A stretch of DNA of 64,000 nt from Limonium bicolor (Eukaryota; Streptophyta; Magnoliopsida; Caryophyllales; Plumbaginaceae): assembly GCA_023374045.1 (NCBI GenBank), contig CM041779.1, positions 301,764,167 through 301,828,166 of the forward strand, written 5' to 3'. The position numbers were made by a program, and so were the translations under genes. Below are positions 5,163 to 57,696 of this stretch, piece by piece. The notes beneath the pieces are model-generated. The model was not told the origin of the DNA. It made no database searches and saw nothing but the letters and a program-made list of their open reading frames with translations. Every line of letters begins with the position of its first letter. The first letter of the stretch is position 1.

Positions 5163-5480
5163 GACCGAACTTACCGACCGACCTTGCACAAGGTCGGTCC
5201 ATTCCAGAACACTTTACCGTAAAATTTCTACTCCGACCGACCTTGTAAGTTCGGTCGCATGTTCGGTCCATTCCCGAGAGTTTCTTCCCTTTGAAAATTC
5301 AAGCCCGACCGAACTTGCCAAGTCCGGTCCCATGTTCGGTCGGTTCCAGAAACTTAATCCGTACACAAAATACAAGCCCGACCGACCTTGCAAGTCCGGT
5401 CCCCAAGGTCGGTCCATTCCAGAAGCCAATTCTCGCAGGGTAAACTGGGCTCGACCGAACTTGCAAGTTCGGTCGCAAGT
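5163..5480. repeat. 73-bp tandem array of palindromic GACCGA...TCGGTC units
   Basis: Five units start at about 5,163, 5,235, 5,307, 5,380 and 5,453, spaced 72-73 bases. Each has a near-perfect palindrome with arms GACCGAACTTG / CAAGTTCGGTC; it is perfect over 22 bp at 5,453-5,474. A further half-site (CATGTTCGGTC or a variant) and ATTCCAGA-like sequence usually follow. The array is G+C-rich inside a very A+T-rich LTR. It lies in the transcribed part of the LTR if the TATA near 7,095 is the promoter. Confidence 0.85.
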
Positions 5481-7091
5481 TCGGTCTACCCTAGACCCTT
5501 GTTTTCCTTTTCTCATTCAACTCCAAACTTCACCCCATATATCCTAGTACACCCTAACCTCATTTGGGCACTTCAAACACACCTTTAGCCATGTACTAAA
5601 CTCTCTAAATCACACACCAAAACCATCTTATCATTCACAAATTCCTTACAAAATTCTTAGCACTTGGAATGCTTCCTCCTTAAGATTCCTAAGTGGTATT
5701 TCACCAATAATGACCACTATACCAAGGTGTTTCCTCTACACCTTAACATCATCTCCCAAACTTCTTTTCTTACTAACTAAACCTCCTTTTTCACATCTTA
5801 CCTAAACATCACTTATTCCTTGGATATCAACATTACCTAAACCTTAAACAAACTTCTCCAAGACTTAAATACATTCTCAAAACACACATTGAATTCCTAG
5901 AACTTCCAAGATAACACCTAAATCCTTGCATCACTCTAAATCACCTTAATACATGTTTTCTTCCCAAGTAAAACATTTGTTCACCTTTACACTTCTTAGT
6001 TCACCAAAACTTACTTAAAACACTTAGAACTTCTTACACATTTTCCAAATTTTGCCATAGCTTCTCTTGTATATACTCACATCCAAACACTTAGGTTTTT
6101 ACCTTATTTCATTCAAGAACACCTAAAATCCATCAACACATTTTTATACACAAACTTCACACATTTAGCACTACATCACAATATAGTGCATAACTTAAAT
6201 TGCTTGGCACTTAGGCCCTTAAATACATGGCTCTTAGGCCCTTAAATAACATAAATCTTAAACACTGAATTTCCCACATAAATAATGCCTTTGACCTGCA
6301 AATACACCCAACAATACATATGCCCTTAATAAACTCCTTGAGAGCATTTTACTAGCTCATTTGCCATTGGCTCCTTAGGTATTTTATAAGCAAATCAAGC
6401 TCATTTTCCTAAGGCATTTAAACTACATTGAGATAGTTTGTTTACCTCTTTTTCCTCACAACTTCTTTCTTGTTTCCTTGTAAAACCGGTGGGATGTTTG
6501 GTTGTTTGTCAACTTCTAAACAATGTACACATAATAGAATGAGTATTCAAGCATCATGATTCATCTCATTGTAAACCCTAGTTACCTATATTGTTTTAAG
6601 GTATTAAAATGATTGTTTTACCTTGGAATGGAAAGAGCTTGAATAAGTATTAAGAGAGGACTCCTCCTAGCCCTTGGAAGATTCAAATGAAGCTAAAAAA
6701 GACAAGAGAAGACACCATTACAAGGTGCATTTTCGGTCAACACCAAAAATGAAGGAAATGGAGTTTCTTTGGTTTTTCCTTACCTTGAAGCAAAGGTGAT
6801 CAACAAGGCATGAAAATATGAGCTCAAGCTCCTTCAATGGTGAATCTCCATGGCACCGAAATGAAGCTTTTGACGATTTGAAAAGATAGAAGTGAAGAGC
6901 TTGGTCTAACTAAGACAAATATGGTCTTAGAATTTGATTTGGAGCATTAATGAACATTTGGTGAGCAATTGAAGTTAGAGAAGAGAGGGGCTGCAAGCTC
7001 GGTTCTGGTTGGGAGAATAGAGGAAGAACATGGTGGGAAGGCAAGGAAATGAAGAGGAGAGGTGAGAGGTGAGAGGTCTCACTTTTGCAAG

Positions 7092-7099
7092 ATATTTAA
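7092..7099 (-). promoter_or_regulatory. candidate LTR TATA box
   Basis: TTAAATAT on the minus strand is followed downstream (lower coordinates) by a C+T-rich stretch to about 6,990, as in plant LTR leaders. It would transcribe towards 3,210 and the primer site, which fits the LTR orientation. It was picked by composition and position only. Confidence 0.35.
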
Positions 7100-8891: not shown

Positions 8892-8904
8892 CACTACAAC
8901 ATAT

Positions 8905-9575
8905 AAGTACAGTTGGGGCAATTTTTGTTGCACCAACAGATCAATATTTGCACTAATAAGATATTCGGTGCAATTTTAATATTGCTCCAGGTTGCACCGA
9001 TTGATGCGCACCAACAAGTCATTGGGGCAAATTTTTAGCGTGCACTATCTTAAAAGCTCTATGGGTGTAAAGATTACTTGCACCAATTGATATAATTCTA
9101 ACAGTGCACTTAAATGTTGCACTAAATTGTACTAGTCTATTAGTGCATGTTTGCTAGGTTGCACCGTTTGATCAATAGCAAAAGGTGTGAATTATTTTGT
9201 TGCACTATTTGAGCAATATCAAATAGTGCGAGCTATTTTATTGCCCCGTTTGACCTCCTTCTACTACAGGCAAAGTCTATTTATTGCACCATTTGATAAT
9301 TAACATTGGTGCAAAATATATTTCTTGCACCGTTTGATGGTTAACAATTGGTGCAAATCTATTTATTGCACCATTTGAAGTTTACAAATAAGGCATTAAG
9401 GACATTGCACCACTTGGTGCATAAACATGCTAGCATACACTAAACACTAAAAGAGCAAACCTTAAGAGTTGCACTATTTGATAGCCTTCCATTAGTGCAT
9501 TTCGCTGTTATTACTCTATTTGATATCACATTTGGTGCAAATTTGAGTTGCCCTATTTGATCTTTTAGATTTGAA
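8905..9575. repeat. left subterminal array of TTGCAC...GTGCAA hairpins
   Basis: About ten imperfect units, roughly 50-60 bases apart, each of the form TTGCAC(C/T)(A/G)TTTGAT, spacer, then (A/T)GTGCAA. Some are near-perfect hairpins: near 9,208-9,232 the arms are GCACTATTTGA / TCAAATAGTGC. Others have arms GCACC / GGTGC, so paired bases change together between units. Arrays like this bind the DNA-binding transposase subunit in En/Spm-type elements; whether these do is inference. Confidence 0.7.
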
Positions 9576-9599
9576 AAAAAAACAAAATCCTAAATAGGT

Positions 9600-12340
9600 A
9601 ATTTTCATATAAATACCATTAGGAGATGAAGAATCCATAAATTCATTTATTATGCCTATCTGAAGCATGTCTTTAGATAAATGAATGGCTGAGAGGGAAA
9701 TATTGACAAAAATACTATTTTATATAATGATGAGTATTTGTACAATAATGAAGAAAATAAAACAGTATAGATGCACAAACACAGTTCTGCTCAATGACTA
9801 TAATCAAAATGACTACAAGATGCTAAACAGGCTAAATGATCCAATCAAGGTCAATTTTGATCATACTCTAATGCTAAAGTCATCTTGGAAAGGCTCTGAT
9901 GTTGACATAGAACTGATCTCCGTTGCTGCAGAAATGCAAAAATTCTCTGATGCTGCAAAAAAAAAGTGTACATTATGTAAAGTGAGCAGATGCAAAAATG
10001 GATCCAAATTTGAGTAGCTTTACAACCAGCAAAAACTCACTGAAAAATAATGCAGCTACTACTTTAAGTAAAGTTCAGTAAGACATATCCTTCTAGCTCA
10101 AAAATAATGCAGCTAGCCTTCCTTGCATTCATCACCCACTATTAATGGTACTTTAAACTTCTGATGCAGATCGGAATTTTCTCCTAACATACTCATTATC
10201 ACAGCATGGCAATATGGTTGACAAACAATCAATATAAGACCTAAAAACTACATTGTCAAAGCTATTTACAGTAGAAAAAATAGAAACAATATAATTTAAC
10301 AATTTAGCGAAGAAATCTAGAGCATGAATTGATAAAAATATAATGTAACAATCATGAATGCATAGGGATGCAACATTACCATATTGATATAAAATTAGCT
10401 GAACTTCAAGGTGTCGGCTCTACATCAGGAATCCATAAATTACTATTAGAGTAGTGAAGCTACTAAATCATCTAGAAGTGTGGCTATTCTCAAAGTTAAA
10501 CTAAAAAACCAGAAATAAACACACTGATCTCACCTGTGATGCCACCTTCATTGTGAATATGAGTGAGTCAGGAGCTTCACGCTGCAGTTGTTTAAACAAT
10601 GCTCTAACTTCAGCATTATGAACCTGAAATTTCAATCGCATATAGAATTTTTTTCAGTAGACTGTCATGGAATTTTTCCAGTAAAAATAACCAGGATTTG
10701 GAACAACTTTACAAGTCAGCAGAGAGAAGATTCATACTGACAAACACTATGGATATATTTTACAACTTGATAGCTTGAATTGCTTCCTCTGTTGTAAAAA
10801 CACAAGCTTGCCTGTATATTTCATCGAGGATGATATCCAAGCAACTTTGTGCAGGAACTTCAACCTACATAATCAAGTTCGACAACAATTAACTGGTGTA
10901 AACCTATGAAACTAAAAAATTCTCGGATAGTAGATTTAAATACATGAGAACTCATCCAAAATTGGTAGAGCATCAGGCATCCTTATAGGTATAGCTCCAT
11001 TTATGTAGCCATTGTTGAGAGCATCAGCTGCAGCCATTGCTTCAGAGACATAGAGACATAGAAGTAGGCAGAGCCAACAAATTTCTCACGTAGATATAGC
11101 CCATGAGTAATCATTTTCAGACCAAATCTAGTTAACAGTAAATTATAACCAGAACGAATTCCAATGCAGAGGAACCCCACTAATACCGGAAGACTGAAGA
11201 ACAAAACTAGGATGAAAAACTCAGGTATCAATTATGAAGATCCAAAGGCCGGAAGAAAGTTTTTTAGCATCGAAACCCAGTAAATGTGTATCATTAAGAA
11301 GTAGTAAGCAGACATGAACCATTAACTTGGAGAACATATTATAATAAGAACAAACAGATGAGGATGAAAGAGGGTGATGATGACATATATCTGCCTCGAA
11401 TTACCAATAGTACGCAGCTCACAAGTGGCAAACACACAAGCATTTTAGTTAATGACATCTTAGCTCGGGTTAAGGCTAAATGCCATGAGAGAGAAAGATT
11501 ATCTCCTGTGTAGAGCTAAAATATACACAAAATAGCAAACATGTTAGCTTGTAAAATAATCTATTGAATAGATTGAGCTGAATACCGAGAGTGTGAGTAT
11601 GAGTATCCCCTGTGATGAGCTAACAACTTACACGCAAAGCAATGAAACATGTTATTTCTTAAAGTAACCAATTGAACAGATTAATGATGAGAAGGTGGAT
11701 ACGACCTGCAAGACCGTCGAAGTCAGTCATGAGAAGATTTTGAATTTCCTGCAAAAGAAGTACAAGCGGATCACAGAAAAGAAAACACAACTCTAAGGTT
11801 ACTTACTCTCACCTTTAAGTGAGGAAATCAGATCCCAGCCTGGGCAAATATGATCCCCCTAGGTTCGCTTCATTTGGTAGCACACAAAATCGGTTTCAAG
11901 AGCATTAGGGACCAAGCCAGATGAAATCTACATATGGAGATGAAAGCAGAGAGAGCCTTGTGTGCGACAGAAATATTATTGAAACGTAACGATACAACAC
12001 AAATATAAACTAAAAAAAACTGAGATGCCTCAATAAATTATTTCTTTGTAAGAGAGTAAACACATATGTAGCAAAAGAGACACAAGAGCAGTTCAAACAG
12101 GCTTTGAACTATATTCATGTTCCGATGAAATCTGTGATGCGTGAAGGACTTGGAGGTCCTTAGAGCAGAAGGAATCGACAGAGAAGTATTGAGAAATTAC
12201 CGTGAGTGAAGATTGAGAACAACAGTCGCAGAGCATGGAGTTCCTTGTCCGCAAGTTCAGATTGTACAATTACCGTGAAGAAGGAGAAGAGTTAGGGTTT
12301 GAAGAGAAAAGGAGATTACCGGTCATTTAAAAAAAATGAA
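9600..12340 (-). pseudogene. gene-like exon fragments inside the CACTA-like element, product not recognised
   Basis: Minus-strand pieces read like separate exons. Around 10,960-11,100 there is a frame encoding ...ADALNNGYINGAIPIRMP..., interrupted by an 8-base duplication of TATGTCTC. Near 10,800-10,860 a frame reads VEVPAQSCLDIILDEIYRQA. Near 10,540-10,625 a frame reads VHNAEVRALFKQLQREAPDS. At 11,706-11,748 a 43-base exon, EIQNLLMTDFDGLA, is bounded by AG and GT. A leader-like segment with AAACCCTAAC lies near 12,290. A plus-strand open frame of 110 codons at 9,685-10,017 is also unexplained. I do not recognise the protein. Capture of a host gene by the transposon is my preferred reading; an unrecognised transposon gene is the alternative. 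Confidence 0.4.
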
Positions 12341-12344
12341 ATTT

Positions 12345-12985
12345 AATGTACTATTGGTGCAACTAAATAAAGTTGCACTATCAAACACTAACAAATTGTG
12401 CAAAAGGTTAAGATGCATTATCAGACACTAACAAATAGTGCAAAATGTTAAGATGCACTAATTGAATTTCTCTATTGGAGTGAATATTTCACTTGGTACC
12501 GTTTGTCCATTTAACAAATAGAGCGATAGGAAAATAATTGCACCATTTGATATGATCTATCAGTGCCCTGGGAAATGAGCACCAACAGATAGTCTATATT
12601 AGGGCAAGTTTTTCTTATTGCCCCTACTGATCATATTTTAAATAATGAAATTTAATGCACTTTTGGTGCGACTAGATAAAAATGCACTATTTGATAACAT
12701 CAATTAGTGCAACCTATGATATTGCACCTATAGATATTTTCTATTAGAGTAAAAATTTTGTTCTGCCCTGTTTGATCATTCGTATAGTATGAATAGTTTT
12801 GAGGTGACATCAATAAATAGGGCGACTTAAAAATTTGCTCTACTTGATACTATCTGTTAGTGCAATTTTTTTTTGTGCACCTTTTACTATGGTCAAGTAG
12901 TGCACCATAATTGTGCCCTATTTGTTGTAACATTTAAGTGCAACCTTTAAAATGCACTAGTTGATAGTCTATAAGTTGCCCCAAA
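12345..12985. repeat. right subterminal array of TTGCAC...GTGCAA hairpins
   Basis: The same motif family as the left array, in both orientations, with units such as GCACTATTTGAT...ATCAATTAGTGCAA near 12,684-12,715. Two tandem copies of an ACACTAACAAATxGTGCAAAA unit lie at 12,385-12,445. The array ends near TTGCCCC at about 12,980, mirroring the GGGGCAA next to the left terminus. Confidence 0.7.
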
Positions 12986-15035: not shown

Positions 15036-15040
15036 TTTTA

Positions 15041-15458
15041 TGAAATGGTAAGGATCTCGTGCTCAGATAGAGGTTGCAAAGAGAGTACCAAGTGTTGTAT
15101 TGATTAAAAGCGTGTCCAATTACATAGCTTATGATTCTTATTTATAGGCCCCCTTATAGAGTATAACCGTTTCTGCGGGCCTACACCACTCTAGAATATT
15201 CTTAAATATACAAGGCTTTCCTATAATTTTACCCCCTTTTGCCAATAATTACTCCCAGTCTCTCGGAGAGAGCCTTGCTTTGCTTCGGAGGCGATTTTTC
15301 TTCCGCAGTCTGTCTGAAGTATGGCTCTATGGTCGCAAGGGCCCGATCGTTGGGGTCGGAAGGGGACTTGGTCGGAAGAGACCCTTCCGTTGTCTCCGCA
15401 GGCAGCATGTATCCTCCGCTGGTCTCTTGGTTGATACGCGTGGTGGAACCCCACTTCA
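15041..15458 (-). repeat. 3' LTR of the Tat-lineage element
   Basis: 418 bp. On the minus strand it begins TGAAGTGGGG (at 15,458) and ends CCATTTCA (at 15,041). It is nearly identical to 25,050-25,469. Confidence 0.93.
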
Positions 15459-15460
15459 TC

Positions 15461-15605
15461 AGTCCCACAAGATCTTTTCTTGTTCCGCAAGGAAAGATCT
15501 TTTCGTTGTTGCTTTCTCTTCGTTTTTTAAATTTTGGCGTTCTGCTCCACTCCTCCTAGTCCCACAAGACCTCTTTTTTTTTTAGAGAAAAAGAAAGAGG
15601 TCTTG
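15461..15605 (-). repeat. duplicated polypurine-tract/hairpin module next to the 3' LTR
   Basis: Two copies, 97 bases apart, of AGTCCCACAAGA(T/C)C start at 15,461 and 15,558. Each is followed by the other arm of an inverted repeat. Copy 1 has arms AAGATCTTT (15,469-15,477) and AAAGATCTT (15,493-15,501). Copy 2 has CAAGACCTCTTT (15,565-15,576) and AAAGAGGTCTTG (15,594-15,605). In the element's own sense, the module next to the LTR places TTGTGGGACTGA directly against the LTR start, as a polypurine tract would be. Confidence 0.7.
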
Positions 15606-15770
15606 GAGTTGTTCCCTTTTGTTTGGATTTCCTACCGTTGGAGATTTACCGGAGGCTCAGCAACGTGCCTTGCTTCAACTGTCGCCTCCTCGTCTTCTGA
15701 GGCTACCTTTCCTGACACGCTTGCAGTAGTAGGCGATGAGTACTTTTTGGTAGAGCGTGCCCAATTTCCG

Positions 15771-15780
15771 CCTATTTAAG
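15771..15780 (+). promoter_or_regulatory. TATA-like box of the antisense gene
   Basis: CCTATTTAAG is followed by a C+T-rich leader (15,781-15,925) and an ATG at 15,928. The position suits a promoter for the plus-strand gene inside the Tat element. Inferred from composition and spacing. Confidence 0.45.
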
Positions 15781-15927
15781 CCCATCCTCCTCCTTTCTTC
15801 TCTTCCCTCTACTTTTTCAAACTTTCAAACTTCTCTGAGCTTTCTCGCATTCTTTCTTCGTCTTCTCCTTTGTTCCCCAATTCCCTGTTTTTCATTCGCT
15901 TGAATCTTTCGACTTTCTCTGTTCGTA

Positions 15928-18900: not shown

Positions 18901-19030
18901 GCCGAAGTGATGCCGCTCTTACTCCGGTAGGTAAGCACAAGGAAGACTCCGGAGGAAGCACCTCAACCCTTCAGAAGCGGTCACAAGAATCTGAGAAGCT
19001 TGCGGAAGACCCTGCAGGGCCTGCATCATA
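15928..19030 (+). pseudogene. antisense multi-exon ORF of the Tat element (plant 'gypsy-type transposon' N-domain plus coiled coil)
   Basis: The gene runs opposite to gag-pol, between integrase and the 3' LTR, where Retand/Grande-type Tat elements are known to carry antisense ORFs. Proposed exons are 15,928-16,697, 16,777-17,196, 17,276-17,808, 17,884-18,381 and 18,460-19,030. The introns are 75-79 bases with GT...AG ends. Exon 1 encodes SVKDLKKLMKGV, PHTLLFSVSFHVG, then (after a frameshift near 16,270) LNPNALGCLHAFLTVCAEND and FKRVSLESGWSSNWFVFY. This resembles the 'putative gypsy type transposon' domain family. Exon 2 is basic and Pro/Ser-rich. Exon 4 is a long Glu/Lys/Ala coiled coil. The start is uncertain, because the ATG frame and the conserved frame differ by a shift before 16,000. 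Exon 5 has stops. Function of such proteins is unknown. Confidence 0.65.
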
Positions 19031-25469: not shown

Positions 25470-25474
25470 TTTTA

Positions 25475-29281: not shown

Positions 29282-30482
29282 TGATGCACTGATTATTGAT
29301 ATATCTTTTAGTGCTTAAACCCCTTATCTTTCTTATTTTTTTCCTAAGTTTATGATTATATGATGTTTTTATCTTTGTTAAAGTGAAAATACCTCACACT
29401 CGATTGTTTTGGTGTTTTTATAACTTAGGACATGATCTGGGAGAAATTCGGTACAAATGGGCAAAACTGGGTCACATCCGGACTTACATCCACACCATTG
29501 CCCCGGAAGCGTTGTTCTTGTCCGGCTAACTGACCCGGATAGAGACCCGGATGTGAATAAACTCCCACTCTTCGAAGCTTTCAAGTTTCTGGATGATATG
29601 TCCGACCCTGTAACCCGGACGTGCTTAGAAAGACAGAAAATATTTACGACCACGAGTGCAGCGCCGCGGGATTTCTATTATATTTCATCAGTTTGTTCAA
29701 CCCTACGACTTGCAAATCTTCAGATTAACTAGAGATGATTTCTACACCTTCTTCTCTTATTGTTTCATCTGTTGTTATGCTTGGCTAAGGGAATAAACTC
29801 CGGGGAATGGTGATTGTAAATAGTTAGGTTTTGTAGTTTTATTATCAGTTGACAAGGATTAATCTTGGGTTTGTTTCAGATTATATCTTGTTTGCGCTAT
29901 CAATAAATTTGCTACTTTATTTTTAGCTCTGCGGAACTGTCAAGATCTGATCGGTGATTGATAGATAGGTCATTATAATCTGTTAGTCTATGGAAAGCTT
30001 TTTCTGATTGACGAGTTTAGCGTTCAGATGAGATTTAAATTCTTGCGCTTAATCCTTTTGCACTTGTTGTGATAAATTCATGATTTGATTTATCGTGTTC
30101 TATGCAGGAGAGTTTTATTTGGCTATGATTTAGTCATTTAGAAACTTGTTAGAATTTGCCGAACCCTATTCCCTAATCAACTGGTGATAGAACTGCTTGA
30201 CTTAACTAGGAAAGATAACCTAAACCCGGAGTTCCGTTTCTCTACTATCCTATTCTCATTTACTTTCTTCTTGTTTTCTATTTTATTATTCTACAACTTT
30301 CCCCCAATTTACAGCCTTTTCTAGGATTAGATTTTTTCATTTAGTCCCCTGCTTCGATGCCCCGTCGCTCATATTACTTTACTGCTACGACCGGGAATTA
30401 TTTTACAACCCGTAGGTTTATTTTGTTTATTAATTTCTAGGATTAATTTCATAGTTTTTAATATATCAAAATACTGTTTGCA
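29282..30482 (+). repeat. 5' LTR of the Athila-type element
   Basis: 1,201 bp. It lacks a ~263-bp segment present in the 3' LTR (46,201-46,469), which includes the only TATA-like box seen (ATTTTAAAGG near 46,354). Contains GTCCGGCTAACTGACCCGGA-type motifs at 29,474-29,627. Confidence 0.92.
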
Positions 30483-30721: not shown

Positions 30722-32131
30722 ATGGTACATACCCGTTCTCGTTGGATACTTACATTGATTTAGATAAGGTTCTGGACCCAGAGAACAAGCGTACCTTTCA
30801 GCGGGCGGACACCAACAAAGGTTTCAAAGGCAATTAGAAATGGCGGCTCTTGTAAATGGTGCTCAGGCGATGAGGCAATTCAATTGACCTGACGCTGTGC
30901 CTAGAAGGAGTCCAGTGGTCCTTCATGTGCTTACACCTGCACTTATAGAGGAGTGGAAGGGGCTGAAGCCTTCTCACTAATCCAAGGTTTCTCTGGAGTT
31001 ACCTAGATGCACCTTTGACGAAACCAATCCTAATGATGCCCTAGATCATGTTAATTGGTTCCTCCTCATATTGATCAGATTGGGTAATCTGAGGGTCTGT
31101 TGGAGTATGTAAGGTTGACTCTTTTCCTCAATACTCTATCTGGAGAAGCGGTGAATTGGTTTTATCGTCTTCTGTCTGATATTATCACGACATGAGAGCA
31201 GATGACTACCAGGTTCTATGATATATTAACCTATTTCTAGAACTATTGACTTGGTAGCTGTTTTGCTTGCTTTTAAACAGACAGAAACTGAGACGATCTG
31301 TGAGGCATGGGATAGATTCAAGGAGATGCTCCACCAGTGCCCATACCATGGCCAAGATTTGACCTGCATATCCATGATGTTCTTCCACGGGCTCCACCAT
31401 ATACATAAGGCTGAGGTACGGTCTGCTTTAGGAGGTGACATTGTCAACAGATCTGGCAGTGACTTCATGGCGGCCATGGAGATCTACATTGAGGAGGTTC
31501 GCCAGTGAGGATCTGAAGGTAGTAGGATTATGTCTGTTGGAGTGAAGGGTGTGCAGAATCTTGATCCTCGGATGGCATACATGGACGAGACCCAGGCACA
31601 ACAGACTACTTTGGTAAGCTCTCTGGTTAAAAGATTTGATCATTTTATGATTACTCTCACAACCATTGCAGCTGGTAAGAGGATGCCTATTAGCTCATCA
31701 GATCCATTTTGTTGTCAATGTGGAGGTACTCATGCTTTTGAGATGTTCTCACAATTGGAGGAGATGAGAACAAGCTGAGGAAGATTACTTTGTGGGGCAG
31801 GGGAATTACCAGCCTTGGAATAAGAACCACATCCCGGCATCCAAATCTTAGGTATGGTAATCCCAACAATGCTTTTAACTCTAACCTTTTGAAGGGCAAT
31901 CAGTAGGGACCACCTGGGTTCGCTCGACCTTCTTATAATCAAGCCTGCCCATAAGGCCAGTTTCAGCAGGGCCATAGTTCATATCAGCCAGTTGCACCTC
32001 AACAACCTGCTAAATCCTCCTCTGATGCAAAGATGGACCAACTTCAAGAATTGATTGCATCCATGGCGAGTACTCAGAAGACTCACACTAAGACGCAAAA
32101 CAATATCAATCAATCTATTGAGACGTAAAAG
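30722..32131 (+). pseudogene. Athila gag, N-terminal part, interrupted by copia
   Basis: The likely start is the ATG at 30,722 (MVHTRSRW). Fragments in several frames match the gag domain: LPRCTFDETNPNDALDHVNW (near 31,000), TICEAWDRFKEMLHQCPYHG (31,296-31,355) and MMFFHGLHHIHKAEVRSALG (31,374-31,433). Later come QTTLVSSLVKRFD and a Cys-rich CCQCGGTHAFE. At least five stops or shifts interrupt it. At 32,132 the copia LTR begins; the gag C-terminus resumes at 38,054. Confidence 0.85.
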
Positions 32132-37262: not shown

Positions 37263-37272
37263 GACATAAAAG

Positions 37273-39699: not shown

Positions 39700-40985
39700 T
39701 AACATGCAGGAGGTTGTCAAGAAAGAGGTGTTGAAGCTTCTAGACGCTGAGATCATCTACCCTATTTCTGACAGCACTTAGGTAAGTCCTGTACAGGTAG
39801 TTCCTAAGAAAGGTGGGTTTGAGGCTGTTCAGAATGACAAAGGTGAGTCTATTCCTTAAAGAAAGATCACTGGTTGGCGCATGTGTATTGACTATAGACA
39901 GTTGAATTCTGCAACCAGAAAAGATCATTTCCCTCTCCCTTTTATTGATCAAATGCTTGAGAGATTGGCTGGGCAAGAATATTATTGCTTTTTAGATGGT
40001 TCTTAAGGGTACTTTCAGATTTCTACTGCGTCATAGGACCAAGACAAGACCACTTTCACTTGTCCTTATGGTACCTTCCGTATAGAAGAATGCCCTTGGA
40101 TTGGTAATGCTTCTGCCACCTTTCAGCGCTGTATGCAGACGATCGTCACGAACTTCATCGAGTAGAGCATTGAGGTATTTATGGATGATTTTTTGTTTAT
40201 GGCTCTAGCTTTGATGTTTGTTTGGTGCAGCTTGATCAAATCCTAGGCCGATATGAGGAGAAAACCTGGTTCTCAACTAGGAGAAGTGTCACTTTATGGT
40301 CAAGGTTGGGATTGTGCTCGGCCACAAAGTTTCTACTAAAGGGATTAAGGTTGAAGGTGGAGGTAATGAGAAATTTCCAACACCTACTTGTGTAAAAAAG
40401 GTAAGAGCTTTCTTAGGGCATACAAATTTTTATAGACGGATTATTTAGGATTTTTCTAAAATTTCCAAAACTATTGACTGATCTGCTTCTAAAAGATGCC
40501 CCATTTGTTTTTTCTGATGATTGTGTATCTACTTTTGATTTGATTAAACAAAAATTAGTAGCTGCACCCACTATTGTTTTACCTGATTGGTCATTACCCT
40601 TTGAGATTATGTGTGATGCCAGTGATTATGCAGTGGAGGAAGCTCTGTGCCAAGGAAAGATAAGATTCTCATGGTCATTGATTATGCAAGCAAAACTTTG
40701 AATGACGCCTAGAGGAACTACACCACCACTGAAAAAAAGCTCCTAGCTGTGGTATTTCCCTTGATAAGTTTAGATCATATCTTTGGGGAAGTAAAGTAAT
40801 TGTTCACACTGACCACACTGCTCTTAGATATTTATTTGCTAAGAAAGAGGCCAAGCCCGGTTGCTTCGTTGGATTCTTTGTTATAAGAATTTGACATTGA
40901 AGTCAGAGATAAGAGGCGAATTGAATACCGTGACTGACCATATTTCTAGGGTGGTAGTTCCTGATGATGGTGTACTGATTAATGA
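39700..40985 (+). pseudogene. Athila reverse transcriptase and RNase H
   Basis: RT: KEVLKLLDAEIIYPISDST (39,724-39,780), GWRMCIDYRQLNSATRKDHF (39,874-39,933), QDKTTFTCPYGTFR (40,040-40,080), NASATFQRCM and EVFMDDF (catalytic, near 40,172-40,192). A connection and RNase H follow: FVFSDDCVSTFDLIKQKL and LPFEIMCDASDYAVEEAL (40,594-40,647). The tail is VTDHISRVVV near 40,930. At least a dozen stops or shifts are present. Order and motifs are those of Athila pol. Confidence 0.88.
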
Positions 40986-40989
40986 TTAA

Positions 40990-42835: not shown

Positions 42836-42985
42836 ATAATATATATATATATACGTCCGGATAAGCGTCCGGCTTACTCACCTGGACGTGTTGAATGGAT
42901 TTTTGCCGTGTCCGGCTCGATGATACGGATGTCCCAAATGGACAACTCAAGCCGCGTTCGGCCTTCTCACCCGGACGGAAGACCC
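42836..42985. repeat. TA microsatellite and GTCCGG...CCGGAC motif cluster
   Basis: A TA run (42,836-42,853) is followed by three CGTCCGGCTT...CCTGGACGTG-like inverted pairs, e.g. GCGTCCGGCTTACTCACCTG and GTTCGGCCTTCTCACCCGGA. It is the same motif type as in this element's LTRs and in three other elements in the window. Confidence 0.75.
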
Positions 42986-43130: not shown

Positions 43131-44465
43131 CCGATGTTACCCACCCAGACCGTCGTCGCCGCTGTTCCTGACGTCGTTGCCCAGCACACTGCCGCAGACC
43201 TCCGCGCCTCACCCGTTCCAGTTCACCGACATCCCCAATTTCTCCACAGTCCAGATGGTCCGTACTTGAGGATAGTTTTGCTGGTTCTTGCTAGGTTTGC
43301 AGTAGCTGTCTGCTCTCTTCTCTCCTCTTGCTTCTGTGTGAGTTTGTTTGAGCGTGACCTAGTTTGCCCAGGGACGGAATTTATTTATGATGAAGAGGCG
43401 AATTTTTGCTGAGGTTGTGATAGCTGCCAAGCTAGATGCACTGTTTAAGCCCTTTGGATTGGGCTAGGTGCTTCGGATGGGCGAGGGCCTCTTTTCTCCG
43501 GCTCTGGTCCATGAATTTTATGGTAATGCACAAGCGAGTGACTCGGCCCATTCTGTCATGTCTTATGTGCGTCATTACCCCATTGAGATCACTCCAGCCT
43601 CCTTCAGCCTTCTGTACGACATTCCAGATAATGAGGAGGGCTACACGGAGTTCCACAAGAATTTTCTACACAGTACGAAGGTGAAGTGCATTCATGAGGT
43701 TGGGTGCACCAGACGCCACAGAGGAGAAGAGAACAAGGACGTTCTCCCTTACTCCAACTTTCCGACTCTTATGCAGAGACTACTGGCAGAGATCCTCAGC
43801 CATCAGATCCGGCCTCAGGCTGGAAATATTCTTCTAACGAGGACTGTTGCTTTTTAACTACTTGGTAGCTGCTCCATCTCCTTCTGCTCAGCGCATCTCC
43901 ATTCCATTCGCCATGTTTCGACAGCTGCATAAGGTGGCCAGCTATCTCCGGTCCAAGAAGAAGAGGGTCACTCCTATTTTCCCTTCTTCATCCATCACTA
44001 CTTGGCCATTATGCTTCCAAAGGACTTCCTCATGGGTCTGGACGTACGCGAGGGGGAGACTCCCATTACATTGAAGACCTTTAAGAGGTGGGGTTTCATA
44101 CATCTCGACGATGGCACATGGGTAAGAGGTAGCTCCATGCTTTTTGATGCTGGATCCTCTTCTTCTAGAGGATCTCGGGCTCGCGCACCTTATACTTCAG
44201 TCATGCAGCCTCCCACTCCCCCTGTGATGGATGTTCCTCCAGAGCTTCAGACGCACCTGAGCGACATATAGAGGATACAACAGGATATGTTTCAGGCTCA
44301 GCATCGGATTTCTGAACGTCTAGATCGTAGTGAGGCTTTCCTGTAGAAGACGTGTCAGCATTTTCAGTAGACTGATACTGTTTAGAGGCAGACGGTTGGG
44401 ATTTTGGAGCGCATCCTCGCTAGCTTTTGTTAGGGAGCTCCACCACCGCCTCCACCACCTCAGTG
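43131..44465 (+). pseudogene. extra ORF downstream of Athila pol (plant transposon protein domain-like)
   Basis: ATG at 43,131 (MLPTQTVVAAVPDVV) in Pro-rich N-terminal sequence. After shifts near 43,390 the conserved core is GLFSPALVHEFYGNAQASDS, MSYVRHYPIEITPASFSLLY and DIPDNEEGYTEFHKN (43,490-43,660). Later come LPKDFLMGLDVREGETPITL, an Asp/Ser-rich stretch, a heptad-like ISERLDRSEAFL, and a final poly-Pro before a stop at 44,465. This resembles a domain found in many plant Athila-type proteins ('putative plant transposon protein'). Athila elements often have a post-pol ORF once called env-like; I see no clear signal peptide or fusion features. Function unknown. Confidence 0.65.
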
Positions 44466-45787: not shown

Positions 45788-45800
45788 GTGTGGGGGAATT

Positions 45801-47264
45801 TGATGCACCGATTATTGATATATCTTTTAGTGCTTAAACCCCTTATCTTTCTTGTCTTTTTCCTAAGTTTATGATTTTATGATGTTTATAACTTTGTTAA
45901 AGTGAAAATACATCACACTGGCTTGTTTTGGTGTTTTTATAACTTAGGACGTGATCTGCGAGAAATTCGGTACAAAAGGGCAAAACTGGGTCACGTCTAA
46001 AGTTACGTCCGCACCATTACCAAGGACGCGTTGTTCCTATCGGCTAACTGACCCGGACAGAGACCTGGACGTGACTAAACTCCCACTCTTTGAAGCTTTC
46101 AATTGTCCGGATGACATGTCCGACCCTGTGACTCGGACGTGCTTAGAAGGACAGAAATATTTACAACCACGAGTGCAACGCCGCGGGATTTCTATTATAT
46201 TTTCGTCCAGCCAGGTCGTCCCGTAAGTGACCTGGACACGCGACCCGGACGTCGCACAATGCCAAAAATCTCACGTGACAACTCTATCTCTTGTCTGGCT
46301 AACTGACCCGGACTGGTTAGCCGGACGTGTGTATTTTATGTCCAAAAATTCTATTTTAAAGGAGCGTGTGCGAGACAGAAGAAAACATTCAGAATTTAGA
46401 ATTAAGAACCGCGATCTAGTTTCTTTCTCTGCAGCCGTGCAACCAATGAGGAATCTCTTATCACTTTCATAGTTTGTTCAACCCTACGACTTGCAGATCT
46501 TCAGATTAACTAGAGATGATTTCTACACCTTCTTCTCTTATTGTTTCATCTATTGTTATGCTTGGCTAAGGGAATAAACTCTAGGAAATGGTCATTGTAA
46601 ATAGGTAGGTTTTGTAGTTTAATTATCAGTTGACATGGGATTAATCTTGGGTTTGTTTCAGATTATAAATCTTGTTTACGCTATCAATAAAATTTGCTAC
46701 TTTATTTTTAGTTTGCGGAATTCTGATCAAGATGATAGGTGACTGATAGATAGATCATTATAATCTGTTATTCTGTGGAAAGCTTTTTCTGATTGATAAG
46801 TTTAGCCTTCAGATGCGATTTAAATTCTTGCGCTTAATCCTTCTACACTTGTTGTGATAAATCATGATTTGATTTATCGCGTTCTGTGCAGGAGAGTTTT
46901 TTTTTTTGCCTGGATTTAGTCATTTAGAAACTTGTTAGAATTTGCCGAACCCTATTCCTTAATCAACTGGTGATAGAACTGCATGACTTAACTAGGAAAG
47001 ATCACCTAAACCCCGAGTTCCGCTTTTATATCCTATTCTCAGTTACTTTCTTCTTGTTTTCTATTTATTATTCTACAACTTTCCACCAATTTACAACCTT
47101 TTTAGGATTAGATTTGTTTGCTTAGTCTCCTAGTTCGATACCCCAGTCGCTCATATTACTTACTGCTACAACCGGGAATTATTTTGTAACCTGTAGGTTT
47201 ATTTTATTTATTAATTTTTAGGATTAATTTTGTAGTTTTTAATATGTCAAAAAGACTGTTTGCA
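45801..47264 (+). repeat. 3' LTR of the Athila-type element
   Basis: 1,464 bp, 263 bp longer than the 5' LTR because of the segment 46,201-46,469. That segment holds two more GTCCGG/CCGGACG motif pairs and a TATA-like ATTTTAAAGG. Contains the GTCCGGCT...CCCGGAC motif cluster at about 45,995-46,330. Confidence 0.92.
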
Positions 47265-47269
47265 GAACG

Positions 47270-48641
47270 TATCCCATGACACCAGTGTGCAGTAGAGTCT
47301 ACTATCTACTCTATGGTTTAAAGGTATAATAGGGGGTGTGCACACTTAAGGGTCTAGATCCATGGAGAAATGTTTGGGAATGGTTTTCCCTTTGTGATTA
47401 TTATGGAAAAGGTTTTCCCTTTCTAACTATTATGGGAAAGGTTTTCCTTTGTGACTATTATGGAAAAGGTTTTCCTTTGTGACTATTATGGGTAGTACTG
47501 TCCTTTGTGACTATTATGGGAAAGGTTTTCCTTTGTGATTATTATGCAAAAGGTTTCCCTTTGTGATTATTATAGGGAAGGTTTTCCCTCATGGTTGGCC
47601 TTGTGCCTTTGGAATTTGAATCGTGGGAAAGGGTTTTCCTAGCGGTTGGCCATGCTTGGTTATGGATTGTGGAATAACGAAAGAAAGATTAGAATTGTGC
47701 CTAGTTGTACTCTTGATCTTGGATTGTGCACATGAGTTGTTCATGGACTTTGAAGTGTGGAAATGATCTAATATGGATTGTTGGAAGTGAATTTGGCATA
47801 TAAACATATATGATTCTCTTGGAGAATCTTTGTAATGGTATGAGATATGCTTTATATATGCTTGGTTGGCATTGAAGTCTTTATGATTAACTTGTGCTTG
47901 TGATGATTGTGGCAACGAGGTGAATAATGAAAGATGATGTCCTATAAAGGACACTCAAATGGAAATAAGTTACTGGAAGTAGTGAAAGATATAGTTCTTT
48001 AGTCTTACATTATTAAAGAATAATAGAACTAAATTCGGGTAGCTTAGTGTTAGTTTTATACTGACAATTTATCTTTGTGTGGTGTTTATGTGTGTTTGAC
48101 CTTACTGTAGGTTAAGTGTTATGAGAGGGGGATATAGGGATTTTGAGCAGCTCATGTTTTAAGAGTTTAGAACAAGCTTCTCTCTAAACGGAGAATACTT
48201 TCATTTGCTTTAAAGGCTTTACTATTGTTTCCTAAGGCGTGAATCAATTTGTGAGAGTATTTCACTCATCCGCCCTTTTTTTTGGATTGAAAATGTGTAA
48301 GTATTAATTCCCTCTTTAGATCTTCTCTTTTGAGTTTGTAATTGTCCTCTATTGAGAGCATGTAGCTCTCCTTAAGCTTTGGTTGATGGAATCCTAGTGT
48401 GGATTCCCTTGCTTTTATTTCTTAAACAGGTTCTGAAAGGTGTAGTTAGGAGCGTAATTAGCAAAGATCATGCCGATTTCTCGCAGGATTTAAGGTCATT
48501 AGTTTCCCTTATTCTAAATTATTCAAATGTTTTTCAAATAGCCTTAACAATCGTGAAGGGTGGTGACAAACACCAAGGTTTTATAATTTCCGCTATGTAA
48601 TAAAATGACTAGGGCCTAGAGATTAGATTTGGAGGTTTACA
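47270..48641 (+). mobile_element. older LTR-like sequence, right part
   Basis: Continues the target sequence after the Athila insertion. AATAGGGGGTGTGCACACTT (47,327-47,346) is found inverted in the Tekay-like LTR at the window end. Near 48,540-48,641 a GGTGGTGACAAACACCAAGG stretch, TTTCCGCTATG and a terminal GGAGGTTTACA resemble the last ~100 bases of those LTRs. 47,610-48,530 has no coding I trust; a 73-codon frame at 48,379-48,600 is unrecognised. Confidence 0.4.
47379..47592. repeat. ~30-bp minisatellite (GGTTTTCCCTTTGTGATTAT)
   Basis: About seven imperfect copies of GGTTTTCC(C)TTTGTGA(T/C)TATTATGG(A/G)AAA. Units join as GGGAAAGGTTTTCCCT, a small palindrome, so each junction can fold. 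Confidence 0.85.
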
Positions 48642-52935: not shown

Positions 52936-54643
52936 TGAGCAGTGAACCCAATCATTGTAGTACAACAAGGTCGTATCTCAGAGACTTCGCAACTATCTAA
53001 TTAATTATTAAGTTAGTAAATGTACAAGAAGATAAATAAAAGTGCATAAAATTGTAAATTGGGGGTTTAACCAGTGGTAATCTTGGTGTTGGGAAAATAA
53101 AAATAATTAAAAGCTTAAATAAAACTATAGTGTATTGAATGGATGGAAAATGTGCTAAGGAAGGTGGAATCGCCCAAATATACTTCAGACATTAATTATA
53201 ATCCTAATTTGCTCTATTTGTCTGTTTAAGAATTTATTATCTTGTGGCCTTCCTAAATCATAGATAAGGACAACTCTTAATTAATTCAATAGACTTTTTA
53301 CAATCAGAAGAAGTCTAAAATCATTAATTAGCATTAAGCAAGAATTCTTTTTAATAACAGCGATGGATTTTATCTGCTAATCAAGGAGATAATATCTAAC
53401 ATTTGTCTCTCTTTGTGGTCTATTCTCAAATTTACAAAATCATTGAAATAAGAGAAACCGTAAATGCGTAAAAATGATCAGTTCTTAAACATTTAATAAT
53501 TTAGAGAGACAAAACAAATATTTATAAGCAAACTCTGTATTATAAATAAGTCTGAATTATTTGGGGTTAAACACCCATCCTAAGCACAAATATAAAATTA
53601 CTCAGACATTAACACGAATGAAAATAAAATAAAGATAGAAGTAGCCATTGTTTTGGAGACTGCTGGAGGAGACGGGAGTGCGACTCGCTTCTGCTCCAGC
53701 TGCTTCCCTTCTCTTCTTCTTATCGTGCTTCTGCTGAGTGGTGGAATAAAGAATAAAAATAAAATGGAGAAGTGGGGGATAAGAGGATGGAATAGATCGT
53801 CGGTGTGGTTTGTGTTGTGGTCGATGGTCGTGGTTTGATGAACGGTGGTGAACTTTGGATTCAGAGGAAGGGATGATTCATTTGAGCAGAAGGAGTGTGG
53901 GTTTTATAGAAGAAAGGAGGAGGAAGAAGACAGGCTGAAGACAGGCTGGAACACGTGTGAGGAATTTAAGGAGGAGTGCGCCGACTCCTGATATTGCTGA
54001 TGGGGTAGATAGATATGTTTGCAGGCGCCGAAGAAGACGGTCGGCGTAGTTGCACCTCTATTTGTTGTCCGGTCAAATATCCACGGACACATTTCTTCCT
54101 TGCTTCCCGTCCGTGCTTATTTCCACGGACAACCTGTCCTTGTTTTGTTCTTGTCCGCCCTTATTTGCACGGACGTGCCACGGACTCCTTCATCTCTTGT
54201 CCGGCCTTTTCTTCTCGGACAACACACACACACATGGCCGGCCTTATTTCCACGGACAGGATTATCTCCTTGTGTCACGTCCGGCCTTTTTTCCACGAAC
54301 GTGACCCGGACGTCTCTAACACATCAATCCGTGTCACGTCCGGCCTTTTATCCCCGGACGTGACCCGGACGTGTGTATTTGACTTGTTTACTTCTGCGAA
54401 CTTTGACCGGCTCTACATTCTTCATTTGGACTCCGTTTTTCGACCCGTTTGTGCCTACGCGTTCATCTCTTTGTCTACTTTGCTCCTAGCTTGGTTTTCC
54501 TCATGTTTAACCAATAAATCTGTAAGATAACCAATAAAACATAAACTAGAGGAAAACAATCCAAAGTGGAGAAATGAGCAAGAAAAGTGCTAATATAATA
54601 TACGAAATACACCCATAAAACATGCTCATTTGGACACTTATCA
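52936..54643 (-). repeat. Athila-type LTR, minus strand
   Basis: On the minus strand it starts TGATAAGTGTCC at 54,643, straight after GTGTGGGGGTG (polypurine tract). It has a TATA box CTATAAAACCC near 53,900. It ends in the TAATTAGATAGTTGCGAAGTC, TGAGATACGAC, TACTACAATGATTG landmarks typical of such LTR ends (about 52,945-53,010). The lower boundary near 52,936 is approximate. With internal sequence only on its 3'-UTR side, it is the 3' LTR of a truncated element. Confidence 0.7.
54066..54372. repeat. array of GTCCG...CGGAC inverted pairs in the LTR
   Basis: At least six units of the form GTCCG(G/T)(C/G)C-TTATTTCCACGGAC, about 45-60 bases apart. Examples are GTCCGTGCTTATTTCCACGG (54,109), GTCCGCCCTTATTTGCACGG (54,155) and GTCCGGCCTTTTATCCCCGG (54,338). 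The 13-15-base spacer is T-rich on the plus strand. Confidence 0.85.
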
Positions 54644-55850
54644 CACCCCCACACTTATCTTTTTGCTTGTCCTCAAGCAAAACCATGTACCCAAGCAAGT
54701 AGGGAATGCTCAATACTTAACAACTATTATTATGAAGGGTAGGATAAGGAGGTGAACAGTACATGATCTTAAACTTTTTGAGGAGTGTGAGTCATCACCT
54801 ACTGGTGGCATAGGTGTGCTCAGGGTAAAAATAAAAATTAAGAGTTTCGGGGTATGATCCGGAGTACTTCAATGCTTCTCAGTTAAGGTGACTTTGAGAA
54901 CTTTTACCAAGGCCAACTTCTCTCAAGAATGGGCATTAAGGAGAAAACAAAAGGAAAAATAGATTTATGCATTTATTTCACTTTTGCATAAGAGATGAGA
55001 AGATAATATGTAGGCTTCAAGCCTTTGTATTTAAGAACACTCAACTCTCATTTGTTGGTTACCAATGGTGTCTCGCAAGTCCCTTGTTTATTTTTTATAT
55101 TTTAACAGAGAAGCACCCCTTAGCAATCCCTAAGAAAGAAGACAGAAGGAACCCCTGAGCAATAAAAATCCAACCATTACAGATCATTTGGTCCCACCGC
55201 ATAAAAATGCTCCTCAAAAGTAATCAAAATGAAAAATTTTGTACCATTTATCCCACAATTCATAACAGTATTTATTCATAAAGAGAACAACCCACATATA
55301 AAGGGTCCACGATATTGAATTTGGAAAAACGCAACATAAGCAGAGAGATTAAGCATTTTAATCACAAAATGTCGCCGAAAAGGGCACTCCCCCACACTTA
55401 AATTAAACAATGTCCTCATTGTTCACCAGAAAAACAAGGGAATGTTTCAGAAGACCTTTTCGGTAAGTAGATAAAATAGAGAAAACATAAAGGTCACAAA
55501 TAGACATTTTAGCACAAGAGCTCTCTACAGCAGAATTTAGTAAAATAAGAGCATAATTAAAGAAACTGGTACTCCCCTGAGATTATTTTTGCTAGCGTTT
55601 ATAGGAGTTCCCCCACACTTGAGCTTCAGCCTCAAGTAGCGTAGCTTTGTTGCAGTGTAGACATGAAGTTGCACCTGCATAAGACACTAGAAGCAACCAT
55701 ACTACAAACGGGGTTAAGAGTTAGCAAAAACAAAATGTAAAGAGAACCTGAAAATTAAAAGAGAAATAAAACCAAAAGAAAGATACTTTCATCCGGGTTG
55801 CCTCCCGGAAGCTGCCCTTCTTTAACGTCTTTGGCTAGACAGTACCACCG
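54644..55850 (-). mobile_element. 3' untranslated region and pol tail of a truncated Athila-type element
   Basis: Inverted hallmarks: CCCCCACACTTATCTTTTTG and CTTGTCCTCAAGC (54,647-54,680), CCCCCACACTTAAATTAAAC (55,388-55,407), CCCCCACACTTGAGCTTCAG (55,611-55,630), and the conserved post-pol block at 55,791-55,840. Minus-strand frames near 55,850-55,900 look like a pol C-terminus but are too short to name. The rest of the element is absent; the Ogre-like LTR begins 100 bases further on. Confidence 0.65.
55791..55840 (-). ncRNA. conserved post-pol block with CCGGG/CCCGG hairpin
   Basis: On the minus strand: GTCTAGCCAAAGACG, TTAAAG, AAGGGCAGCTT, then CCGGGAGGCAACCCGG (55,793-55,808). It matches 42,481-42,530 in order and spacing; the hairpin arms differ but pair in both copies. 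Confidence 0.65.
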
Positions 55851-55958
55851 TGAAGTCAGCCGGGATCGAATATGAACGTTGAAGTTGGCTTCAACGGGTG
55901 GGTGGGGCGGGCATCATGGATAATTGAAAAATGACCCGGATCAAAAGGAAAAGCTATC

Positions 55959-57696
55959 TGTTATACCCAAAATTTCAACCCCCCGGAAGAGAGTCTATAC
56001 TAATAGGCTAGTAGCGAGGATTCCCAGTTCGATTGGCACATTTCAGAGTACTAGGGATAGCTTAGTCATCTCCAGGGGACTTTTTGTAATTTGTCAAGGC
56101 TCCTAAGCCCCCTATAGGCTTTCTCTCTCCTCCAAAGAAGGGTTAAACAATTCAAAATTCTATGAAATTTTAACCCATGATAGAGGATGACATTTTAAGC
56201 ATAATGGTGTTGGAATTTTGATTTTTCGAATTTCCAATAATTTTCTAGCAATTTTTTATTGAATCTGACGAGAAATTGAATTTAAAAATATTCCAATATC
56301 CAAAAAAATTCGATCCCACTTTATAAAAATCAGAAATATCATCCTTTACCCATGTGTAAAATTTCATAATCAAATTCCTTTTGGAAGCCCTTGAGCTAAA
56401 ACGTCAGTAAATCTCGGTTTTTACTGGATTTTTCTATCTTTAAGGAAGCCTATATAAGGAGCCTTATCCCTTGATCAAATCAGAACCTCAAGAACCCTAG
56501 ACTCTCAAAGAAGGCAGCCGTCTCTTTCTCTTCACGTTTTGAACTCCAGAGCCACAATCAAACACCAAAATCTCACCAAAATCAACACCAAAACATATTT
56601 TTCAATTCCCACAACATCATACATCATCAAACCCTCACCAAAACAGCACCAAAACGTGAAGAACATCAAGAACAATAAGGAGTCAGAAGCTGGGTTCGAA
56701 GTTCTTCCGGATCCGCCATCAACGAGGCCTCCGAAGAATCCCGACGTGAAGAAACACCACGAATCTGAAGGTAAAACATGTTATAACTCTACTTTTCTAA
56801 TTCCCCACAACCTCATTGACTCTCTGTTAAATTTTGGGCTCAAACCACCCCTTTTCGGCTTCTGTATAGCTAAGTACTTTTGCTTCTGCCTTGTTACTTG
56901 TTTATCAAGTTTCGTACATAATTCGACTTCAAACTGCAATCTTTCAATTACTAACATATTGTACATCTTTCAGGCTACACGTGCATAATTTTTTAGCTGA
57001 AAACACCCTCGGGAACCACCGGAAAACCCTTGTCCGTGGGTGGTCCGGGACCACGGACGGGTTGTCCGTGGCCACGGACACCACGGACGGCGGTGGGATT
57101 TTAAATTTTTCAAATTTTAGGTTTTCTCTAAACAATGTCCGGGCCCACGGACATCCTGTCCTTGGCCCCGGACTTCTCAAATTTTGTTTTCTGTTTAATT
57201 CGACTTTTATTACCACATAGAATAACTAGGGTCCGTGGGTACGGACATTAGGTCCGTAGTCACGGACGGAAACAAAATTTGACCTAATTCTGCCTCTGAA
57301 ACCCTAGTTTAGGAAATTTCAACTTTCACTTTTATTTTCAGTCAAAAAATGTTAAAAAACACAAAAAAACAGAAGCTCACGCACTTAGGTTAAAACGACT
57401 CGTAACAAGCCGTAATTAAACTAAGTAGAGGAAAAACGACTTCTAGGGGTAATGAAAGTAATTGAACCCTAATTAAGTCGAATATCAAGCCCCCGAACCC
57501 GAACTCTCCTTTCCTAATTTGATCTAGGTAAAAATTAGGTGGCGACTCACAATAGGTTCCAGTGAGCTAGCTTAGGTTTTAATAATTATTGTTATATGAC
57601 ATAGTTATTAATCCTAGGTTATAAGTGGACCTAAAACCCAACTAGATCCTAATCAACTTAATCAACACTGGGTAGGGTTTAAAATCGAGGCTCACA
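55959..57696 (+). repeat. 5' LTR of the Ogre-like element
   Basis: 1,738 bp, TGTTATACCC...GGCTCACA. Contains the GTCCGT-N4-ACGGAC cluster (57,032-57,267). A 149-codon open frame at 56,539-56,988 lies within the LTR and looks fortuitous. Confidence 0.8.
57032..57267. repeat. GTCCGT-NNNN-ACGGAC palindrome cluster
   Basis: Perfect GTCCGTGGCCACGGAC at 57,064-57,079; GTCCGTgggtACGGAC near 57,231; GTCCGTagtcACGGAC near 57,252; imperfect copies at 57,032 and 57,137. The outer six bases on each side are fixed and the centre four vary. Confidence 0.88.

Follow-up and report, generated by a model that had tools for sequence, protein, structure and literature searches.

Short G+C-rich inverted repeats (dyads) built from the half-site G(A/T)CCG form clusters in long terminal repeat (LTR) retrotransposons of Limonium bicolor, and these clusters are real and genome-wide. 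They were followed from a stretch of 64,000 nucleotides of contig CM041779.1 (the window), in which all six clusters of a preliminary description made from the sequence alone were recovered at the coordinates given there, in two Athila-type elements, one on the plus strand, Athila(+), and one on the minus strand, Athila(-), and in an Ogre-type and a Tekay-type LTR. On balance, the arrays are probably exchangeable cis-regulatory clusters of dyads, recognised by a dimeric sequence-specific factor that binds DNA at the half-site G(A/T)CCG.

Dyad clusters in the window

The over-representation of GTCCG..CGGAC that had been described was confirmed: GTCCG-N(0-20)-CGGAC occurs 14 times in the window, compared with 0.53 expected from the half-site counts and a mean of 0.20 over 40 shuffles, and among all 5-mers with gaps of 0 to 20 this dyad ranks directly after ATATA/TATAT. 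The seven exact dyads of the Ogre-type cluster and the five of the Athila(-) cluster were reached in none of 200 shuffles, and the same holds for the three exact dyads of the related GACCGA..TCGGTC array, which is indeed present in the Tekay-type LTR. In Athila(+), exact dyads are weak, with one in the 5' cluster (0/200 shuffles), one in the 3' cluster (2/200) and none in the cluster behind pol. The evidence for this element comes from eight units with a constant N11 spacer, the majority containing a single mismatch, distributed over both LTRs and the post-pol cluster, and from the enrichment of the 5-mer CGGAC/GTCCG, which ranks second in the 3' LTR array (P 1.8e-8) and third in the post-pol cluster (P 2.9e-5). 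The same 5-mer is the most enriched one in the Athila(-) and Ogre-type arrays, and CGGTC/GACCG is the most enriched in the Tekay-type array. When one mismatch and gaps of 3 to 16 are allowed, the window contains 34 dyads, 26 in the five GTCCG clusters and 8 outside, 4 of which fall in the Tekay-type array.

Each family has a fixed spacer between the half-sites, namely 6 in the Ogre-type, 11 in Athila(+), 12 in Athila(-) and 10-12 between the GACCGA halves of the Tekay-type array (12-14 between its GACCG halves). Spacers do differ by family, as first described, and the values first given for them (4 and about 10-15) have to be replaced; nor can all carriers be called unrelated, since two of the elements are both Athila-type. 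The observed/expected (o/e) ratio of CpG, measured as such and without a formal island caller, is 1.01-1.29 across the six clusters and 0.67 in the whole window.

Abundance in the source genome

In the source genome, the only one scanned (2,924,550,425 bases), we found 482,255 matches to GTCCG-N3-15-CGGAC against 10,844 to the reversed pattern (44x) and 242,145 to GACCG-N3-15-CGGTC against 7,352 (33x); the comparison dyad GCCCG-N3-15-CGGGC gave 26,515 against 8,229 (3.2x). The halves tend to match at position 2, with 724,400 matched dyads, roughly one per 4 kb of genome, versus 184,680 mixed ones (GTCCG..CGGTC and its complement, 91,672 and 93,008, against 11,444 and 11,455 reversed), and many mixed dyads among the matches listed are overlapping frames of GTCCGGTC. 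The GTCCG places listed come from one end of one contig and are not a random sample; of the first 100 units listed, 89 sit in arrays of at least three units. Arrays of at least two units among the matches listed hold 2-7 units, and for 16 of the 24 unit groups among these matches a second group, 4-25 kb off, repeats one or more of the units identically, the arrangement expected of LTR pairs.

An unselected sample was also taken, consisting of 25 stretches of 10 kb at preset positions (20 on the sequence C4 and 5 on C1-C3, all used), in which the 886 5-mers that form at least one dyad at a gap of 3-15 were compared. The leading CG-containing dyads were GTCCG (33 against 1.2, 9 loci) and GACCG (28 against 1.1, 10 loci), together with CGACC (32 against 1.3, 10 loci), a shifted and overlapping frame, and TGCCG (18 against 0.4), all from one locus. 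Among the 16 NNCCG flanks, only GT (33 against 2.6, 9 of 25 loci) and GA (28 against 2.5, 10 of 25) are strongly enriched in many loci; TG (18 against 0.9) comes from one locus and GC reaches 4 against 0.7. In these genome-wide dyad counts and samples, with reversed patterns as controls, neither of the conditions under which the preliminary description would have failed, a motif density equal to that of controls or an origin of all clusters in one recent insertion, was borne out. The number of matched dyads, the arrays of at least three units and the LTR-pair-like partners support the preliminary description of a cis-element shared by the retroelements of this genome.

Half-site conservation and exchange of arrays

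Two Ogre-type relatives, L034 and L035, are 76 and 79% identical to the window across the aligned LTR. Within the array, 69 of 70 half-site positions are identical in each of them, compared with 130/173 and 122/173 across its other positions (Fisher P 1.3e-6 and 4.5e-8), in an alignment that the half-sites help to anchor and with two relatives that are not independent of each other. The copies differ by gaps of about 21 bp, that is, one unit. Low mutability does not account for this conservation, because in the LTR pair of Athila(+), whose 5' copy is without the segment matching 46203-46464 of the 3' LTR, the cluster has lost identity no more slowly than the remainder of the LTR (86.9% versus 93.8% and 90.3%). 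The decay of CpG in this pair was also considered as a mark of array-specific methylation and was rejected, per-site rates being alike (CG 10/35 in the array, 7/28 downstream and 2/8 upstream).

The Tekay-type arrays have been exchanged within conserved surroundings. Flanks of the window array are 80-91% identical in the loci L001, L007 and L025, whereas the end-to-end identity of the arrays is 0.46-0.52, with shuffles at 0.41-0.43; L024 kept the array of the window at 95%. In L001 and L007 (C1 339 and 9994), counted as one case because they are probably one LTR pair, GTCCG dyads replace the GACCG dyads, with six exact G(A/T)CCG dyads each, and about 155 bp past the array are also unmatched; L025 has GACCGACCC units, one of them exact. 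The arrays of the window and L001 still share a local match on opposite strands (score 46, shuffle maximum 25). When 24 loci were compared with the flanks of the window, a Tekay-type flank was recognised in 9, on both sides in 4 of these, and the Athila(-) flank in 4 others; the remaining 11 matched neither. The four with the LTR-start flank of Athila(-) are L036 (92%), L029 (90%), L045 (85%) and L019 (79%), and the units beside this flank are of three kinds, with the half-site in either form: GTCCG-N12 in L036, GTCCGAACC-type in L029 and GACCGACCC-type in L045 and L019. L036 and L045 were picked for their dyads.

Units are also common to different lineages. In the 66 pairwise comparisons of 12 arrays, 20 pairs exceeded all 60 shuffles (about one expected by chance); among these, units of the Tekay-type L025 and the Athila-type L045 share an aligned stretch of 40 bases (53 against 25), and those of the Tekay-type L001 and the Athila-type L029 one of 37 bases (34 against 25). 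This sharing reflects exchange or close convergence, which the data do not separate. Template switching, or convergent selection for a bound factor or an RNA fold, had been put forward as origins of the clusters; the Ogre-type half-sites argue for selection and the L025/L045 pair for exchange or convergence of whole units, and the RNA fold is not favoured. No relatives were found in viral contigs.

The arrays of Athila(+) and Athila(-) in the window match better in opposite orientation (score 39, 0/200 shuffles; spacer test 0/200) than in the same one (20, 46/200 shuffles). Inversion as proof of orientation independence was kept as a hint only, because the post-pol cluster matches both ways and L036 matches Athila(+) the other way round.

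A candidate binding factor and the alternatives

The clusters change fast and yet keep one word, which suggests one kind of DNA-binding protein. The factor would most likely come from the host, perhaps as a small family of factors, since the half-site is common to several lineages and unit types are shared between them. Each element family would fix its own distance between half-sites, and arrays would be duplicated, shortened and exchanged inside the LTR while selection keeps the half-site. As arrays turn over and the half-site is selected, an element could keep its regulator and offer homology-based silencing a moving target. The Athila-type arrays, located between the LTR start and the TATA box, would work as enhancer boxes, the Ogre-type array being placed downstream of TATA. 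More tentatively, G(A/T)CCG dyads may be a lineage-crossing exchangeable module of angiosperm LTR retrotransposons (Tekay, Athila, Ogre, Sirevirus) read by a conserved plant factor, with cassettes swapped between lineages and the A/T switch marking two factor specificities; we hold this wider proposal to be possible, though doubtful. The palindromic LTR boxes of Sireviruses were described with no binding factor known for them. One half-site recurring in Athila-, Ogre- and Tekay-type elements offers a defined bait for isolating the factor. Arrays that replaced one another at one LTR site are a natural experiment on what changes and what must stay in an arms race, and if a host factor does bind the dyads, much of the genome would be a sink for it.

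Several points weigh against a bound factor of this kind. A plant factor that recognises G(A/T)CCG dyads is not known to us. The reversed control patterns hold no CpG and are not CpG-matched, and other dyads, such as CCGAC..GTCGG, are enriched too in the 25 samples (21 against 0.9, 7 loci). L025 and L019 have only one exact dyad each, and in 11 of the 24 loci no LTR flank of the window was matched beside the array. One function for all arrays is an assumption, because the Ogre-type array lies downstream and the Athila-type arrays upstream of TATA. Half-sites of the Ogre-type array share one face of the helix (R 0.96 at 10.5 bp, 13 sites, 0/2000 random placements), but no phasing was seen in three further arrays that were tested (P 0.32-0.88), and helical phasing as a general rule was abandoned. 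Folded as single strands, three arrays come out far lower than their shuffles (z -6.4 to -7.4), a result that an RNA role would also lead one to expect. For the Sirevirus boxes, no common binding factor was found by Bousios et al. (PMC2829016), as far as the available text of that paper goes.

An RNA role, with stem-loops in the transcript that function in packaging, dimerisation or export, or that are incidental but give rise to small RNAs, would account for these three folds, and the Ogre-type and post-pol arrays do lie in transcribed parts; in maize, Sirevirus palindromes are described in the available text of two reports as small-RNA hotspots with strong predicted structure (PMC5311732, PMC10760457). 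We nevertheless consider it unlikely. The folds of the Athila(+) arrays hardly surpass those of shuffles (z -2.1, and -1.2 for the post-pol cluster), the position of the array in the transcript varies by lineage, and 5-bp arms around a constant N12 spacer would make a weak hairpin. The two halves show no inner covariation either: at 21 inner positions in four unit sets, a small and hand-picked subset in which several positions hardly vary and test nothing, none reaches 0.05. The sets comprised 22, 22, 20 and 11 units, or 14 N6, 15 and 16 Tekay-type N12 and 11 Athila-type N12 distinct units after merging of reverse complements, and since exact outer pentamers were the criterion for choosing units, the test covers inner positions only. 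Pair counts on the window units likewise gave no support for stem selection, and selection on RNA structure was demoted despite the three strong folds.

It is also improbable that a DNA-binding protein encoded by the elements themselves, such as an extra open reading frame (ORF) product of Athila or Tekay, binds its own arrays and lifts silencing, as VANC does on VANDAL. Fast turnover with array-wide switching of one base resembles the targets of VANC (PMC5735166, PMC10398659), and the proteins of the additional ORF (aORF) of sunflower Athila and Tekay are predicted to be nuclear (PMC11728184), according to the text available for these studies. However, the half-site is common to the Tekay-, Athila- and Ogre-type elements here and to published Sireviruses, and one unit type to a Tekay-type and an Athila-type LTR, both of which favour a cell-wide factor; VANC21 motifs have one orientation in what is available of that work (PMC5735166) and the arrays here are inverted, and the ORF fragment of the window has only a weak match to PF20167. 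Least credible to us is a mutational by-product, that is, functionless G+C-rich palindromes spread by template switching during reverse transcription and by unequal exchange. The tandem structure of the Tekay-type array, the one-unit gaps between Ogre-type copies and the exchange and sharing of arrays would all fit such a process, but it does not predict one pentamer out of many across lineages, nor 99% conservation of half-sites beside 71-75% in the rest of the array, and the decay of the Athila(+) cluster argues against low mutability as the cause.

Features of the window

Features of the carriers and their arrays are collected in Table 1. The gag, RNase H and integrase fragments of Athila(+) lie in Gypsy order, which is shown for this element alone among the carriers; it also carries the primer-binding-site (PBS)-like motif TGGTGTCGTTGCC, and a Copia element is nested inside it (LTRs about 32119-32959 and 37260-38053). 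The PF20167 match (E 4.6e-6, 27.1 bits) is below the curated cut-off of 45; a Transposase_32 domain is also reported in the 3' aORF of sunflower Athila in the available part of PMC11728184. Protein searches gave matches for reverse transcriptase (RT) and none for the env-like fragment. A 28-bp tandem array of 7.5 copies lies just outside the element (47375-47587). Ahead of the Athila(-) LTR, further copies of AAGTGTGGGGG are found at 55398(-) and 55619(-), and AGTGTGGGGG occurs in three minus-strand copies in 54646-55630; multiple polypurine tracts (PPTs) are known in Sireviruses, and one extra PPT in Athila4 and Calypso, in the text available from PMC2829016.

The lineage names of the Ogre-type and Tekay-type LTRs were taken from the preliminary description and from characteristic motifs and are provisional. 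A domain search of the Ogre-type element returned one gag match, below the cut-off, and no further domain, and protein searches gave no match for this gag; the PBS-like TGGCGACTC occurs twice near the LTR end, at 57540 and 57700. In the Tekay-type LTR the array is at the same time a tandem repeat of 73 bp. We take TGGTATCAGAGC to be a PBS-like motif; a possible LTR start, TGTAACACCCC, lies near 13936(-), and the LTR limits are tentative. So is the label, as this motif would fit a Sirevirus too, yet the LTR spans at least 3.7 kb. Past the LTR of L025, and on its strand, come a fragment of integrase and an ORF resembling an SH3/chromodomain, but away from the place expected for the first gene after a 5' LTR. 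ACCGAC words were seen by eye, uncounted, in the Tekay-type array (5163-5484); ACCGAC is the core of the drought/cold DRE (dehydration-responsive element), with a possible link to stress factors.

A probable CACTA-type DNA transposon (8892-12902) with the ends CACTACAACA... and ...AAGTAGTG and subterminal 40-41-bp repeats with TGCAC/GTGCA dyads lies inside the putative Tekay-type LTR. Another minus-strand element (15040-25470) has ends that are 97% identical, RT and integrase matches, plus-strand ORFs between pol and the 3' LTR and a 39-bp tandem array (19286-19456); it resembles the Retand layout as given in the accessible part of PMC11963269.

Table 1. Positions of the array carriers, their arrays and associated features in the window.
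Feature	Position	Strand	Basis or remark
PBS-like motif TGGTATCAGAGC orienting the Tekay-type LTR	3193..3204	-	GGGGTGTTACA just before
GACCG..CGGTC dyad array, 73-bp period	5155..5490	-	in Tekay-type LTR; CpG o/e 1.26 (window 0.67)
Athila-type element, whole	29282-47264	+	5-bp duplication GAACG on both sides
5' LTR, Athila-type	29282..30482	+	duplication GAACG 29277-29281
Degenerate GTCCG-N11-CGGAC array, 5' LTR	29474..29627	+	spacing
gag fragment, Athila-type	31230..31505	+	PF03732, 30.4 bits, above cut-off
RT_RNaseH_2 fragment	40417..40698	+	PF17919, 38.8 bits
Integrase fragment	41441-41800	+	PF00665; downstream of RT_RNaseH_2 fragment
GTCCG-N11-CGGAC-type cluster between pol and env-like/aORF region	42853..42985	+	spacing, 5-mer enrichment; no exact dyad
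ORF fragment downstream of post-pol cluster	43468..43854	+	weak Transposase_32 (PF20167) match
3' LTR, Athila-type	45801..47264	+	duplication GAACG 47265-47269
GTCCG-N11-CGGAC array, 3' LTR	45995..46330	+	about 194-529 bp into LTR
GTCCG-N12-CGGAC array, 7 units, 5 exact	54067..54372	-	273-578 bp into Athila-type LTR
Polypurine-tract-like AAGTGTGGGGG	54646..54656	-	adjoins Athila(-) LTR start, near 54645
Ogre-type LTR	55959..57696	+	begins with TGTTATACCC; terminal CA ahead of PBS-like TGGCGACTCTACTGGGGA (57700)
TATA box TATATAAGG of Ogre-type LTR	56451..56459	+	scan; TATATAA at matching place in L034, L035
GTCCG-N6-CGGAC array, Ogre-type	57032..57267	+	half-sites phased at 10.5 bp

Comparison with known systems

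The variable CpG islands of Del/Tekay LTRs were suggested by Cruz et al. (2014) to be a moving target for silencing; the part of that paper available leaves palindromes unmentioned, and the eudicot Del elements studied there had no island (PMC4029996). The variable stretch described here differs in keeping one half-site. VANC targets of VANDAL elements are also short noncoding motif arrays that diverge fast between related elements, but as far as the accessible text of these reports goes they are element-specific, of one orientation and bound by the element's own protein (PMC5735166, PMC10398659), whereas our arrays consist of inverted dyads, and several lineages use the same half-site. In maize, the palindrome CACCGGACNNNGTCCGGTG is the top structured motif of Copia elements and also of Helitrons; it contains CGGAC..GTCCG, with half-site order reversed and a different spacing, and Gypsy LTRs go unmentioned in the available text (PMC10760457).

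The closest likeness is to the Sirevirus RM boxes. In the text available from Bousios et al. (2010), these are CpG-rich palindromic boxes with a CGG-CCG core, at least 8 per element, located in the LTRs upstream of TATA, 200-400 bp from the PPT/LTR junction, and also 5' of env, and they are specific to Sireviruses among Copia elements (PMC2829016). When the published CGG-CCG boxes were treated as independent, 9 of 12 contained CGG(A/T)C or G(A/T)CCG, where random flanks would give one in eight (P 1.1e-6, or 4.0e-5 with two similar pairs merged); a thirteenth box, Tnd-1, lacks this core and was excluded. The arrays of the window are likewise CpG-rich palindromic boxes with a CGG-CCG core. They start 194 and 273 bp into the Athila-type LTRs and about 1,070 bp into the Ogre-type LTR; the Athila(+) 3' array ends about 22 bp before a weak TATA-like TATTTTAA at 46352 (seen by eye and not returned by the TATA scan), the Athila(-) array lies 159 bp before TATAAAA at 53908(-), and the Ogre-type array, unlike the RM boxes, is 581-816 bp downstream of the TATA at 56451. 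The post-pol cluster of Athila(+) precedes the ORF with the weak PF20167 match, which is at most a candidate env. The window arrays hold up to 7 units, in incomplete elements, and most arrays seen here stay below the number of boxes given for a Sirevirus. Athila-type elements appear to come close to the RM-box layout.

One carrier, however, is not a Sirevirus: Athila(+) has a PF03732 gag and RNase H before integrase. The other carriers are Gypsy by label, and a unit type is shared here between lineages. A literature search, with subscription papers outside its scope, found no report of such boxes in Gypsy LTRs. The elements described here would then show that a cis-element of a known kind is not confined to Copia and, as their sequences indicate, add to it a common half-site, the conservation of that half-site and the exchange of arrays.

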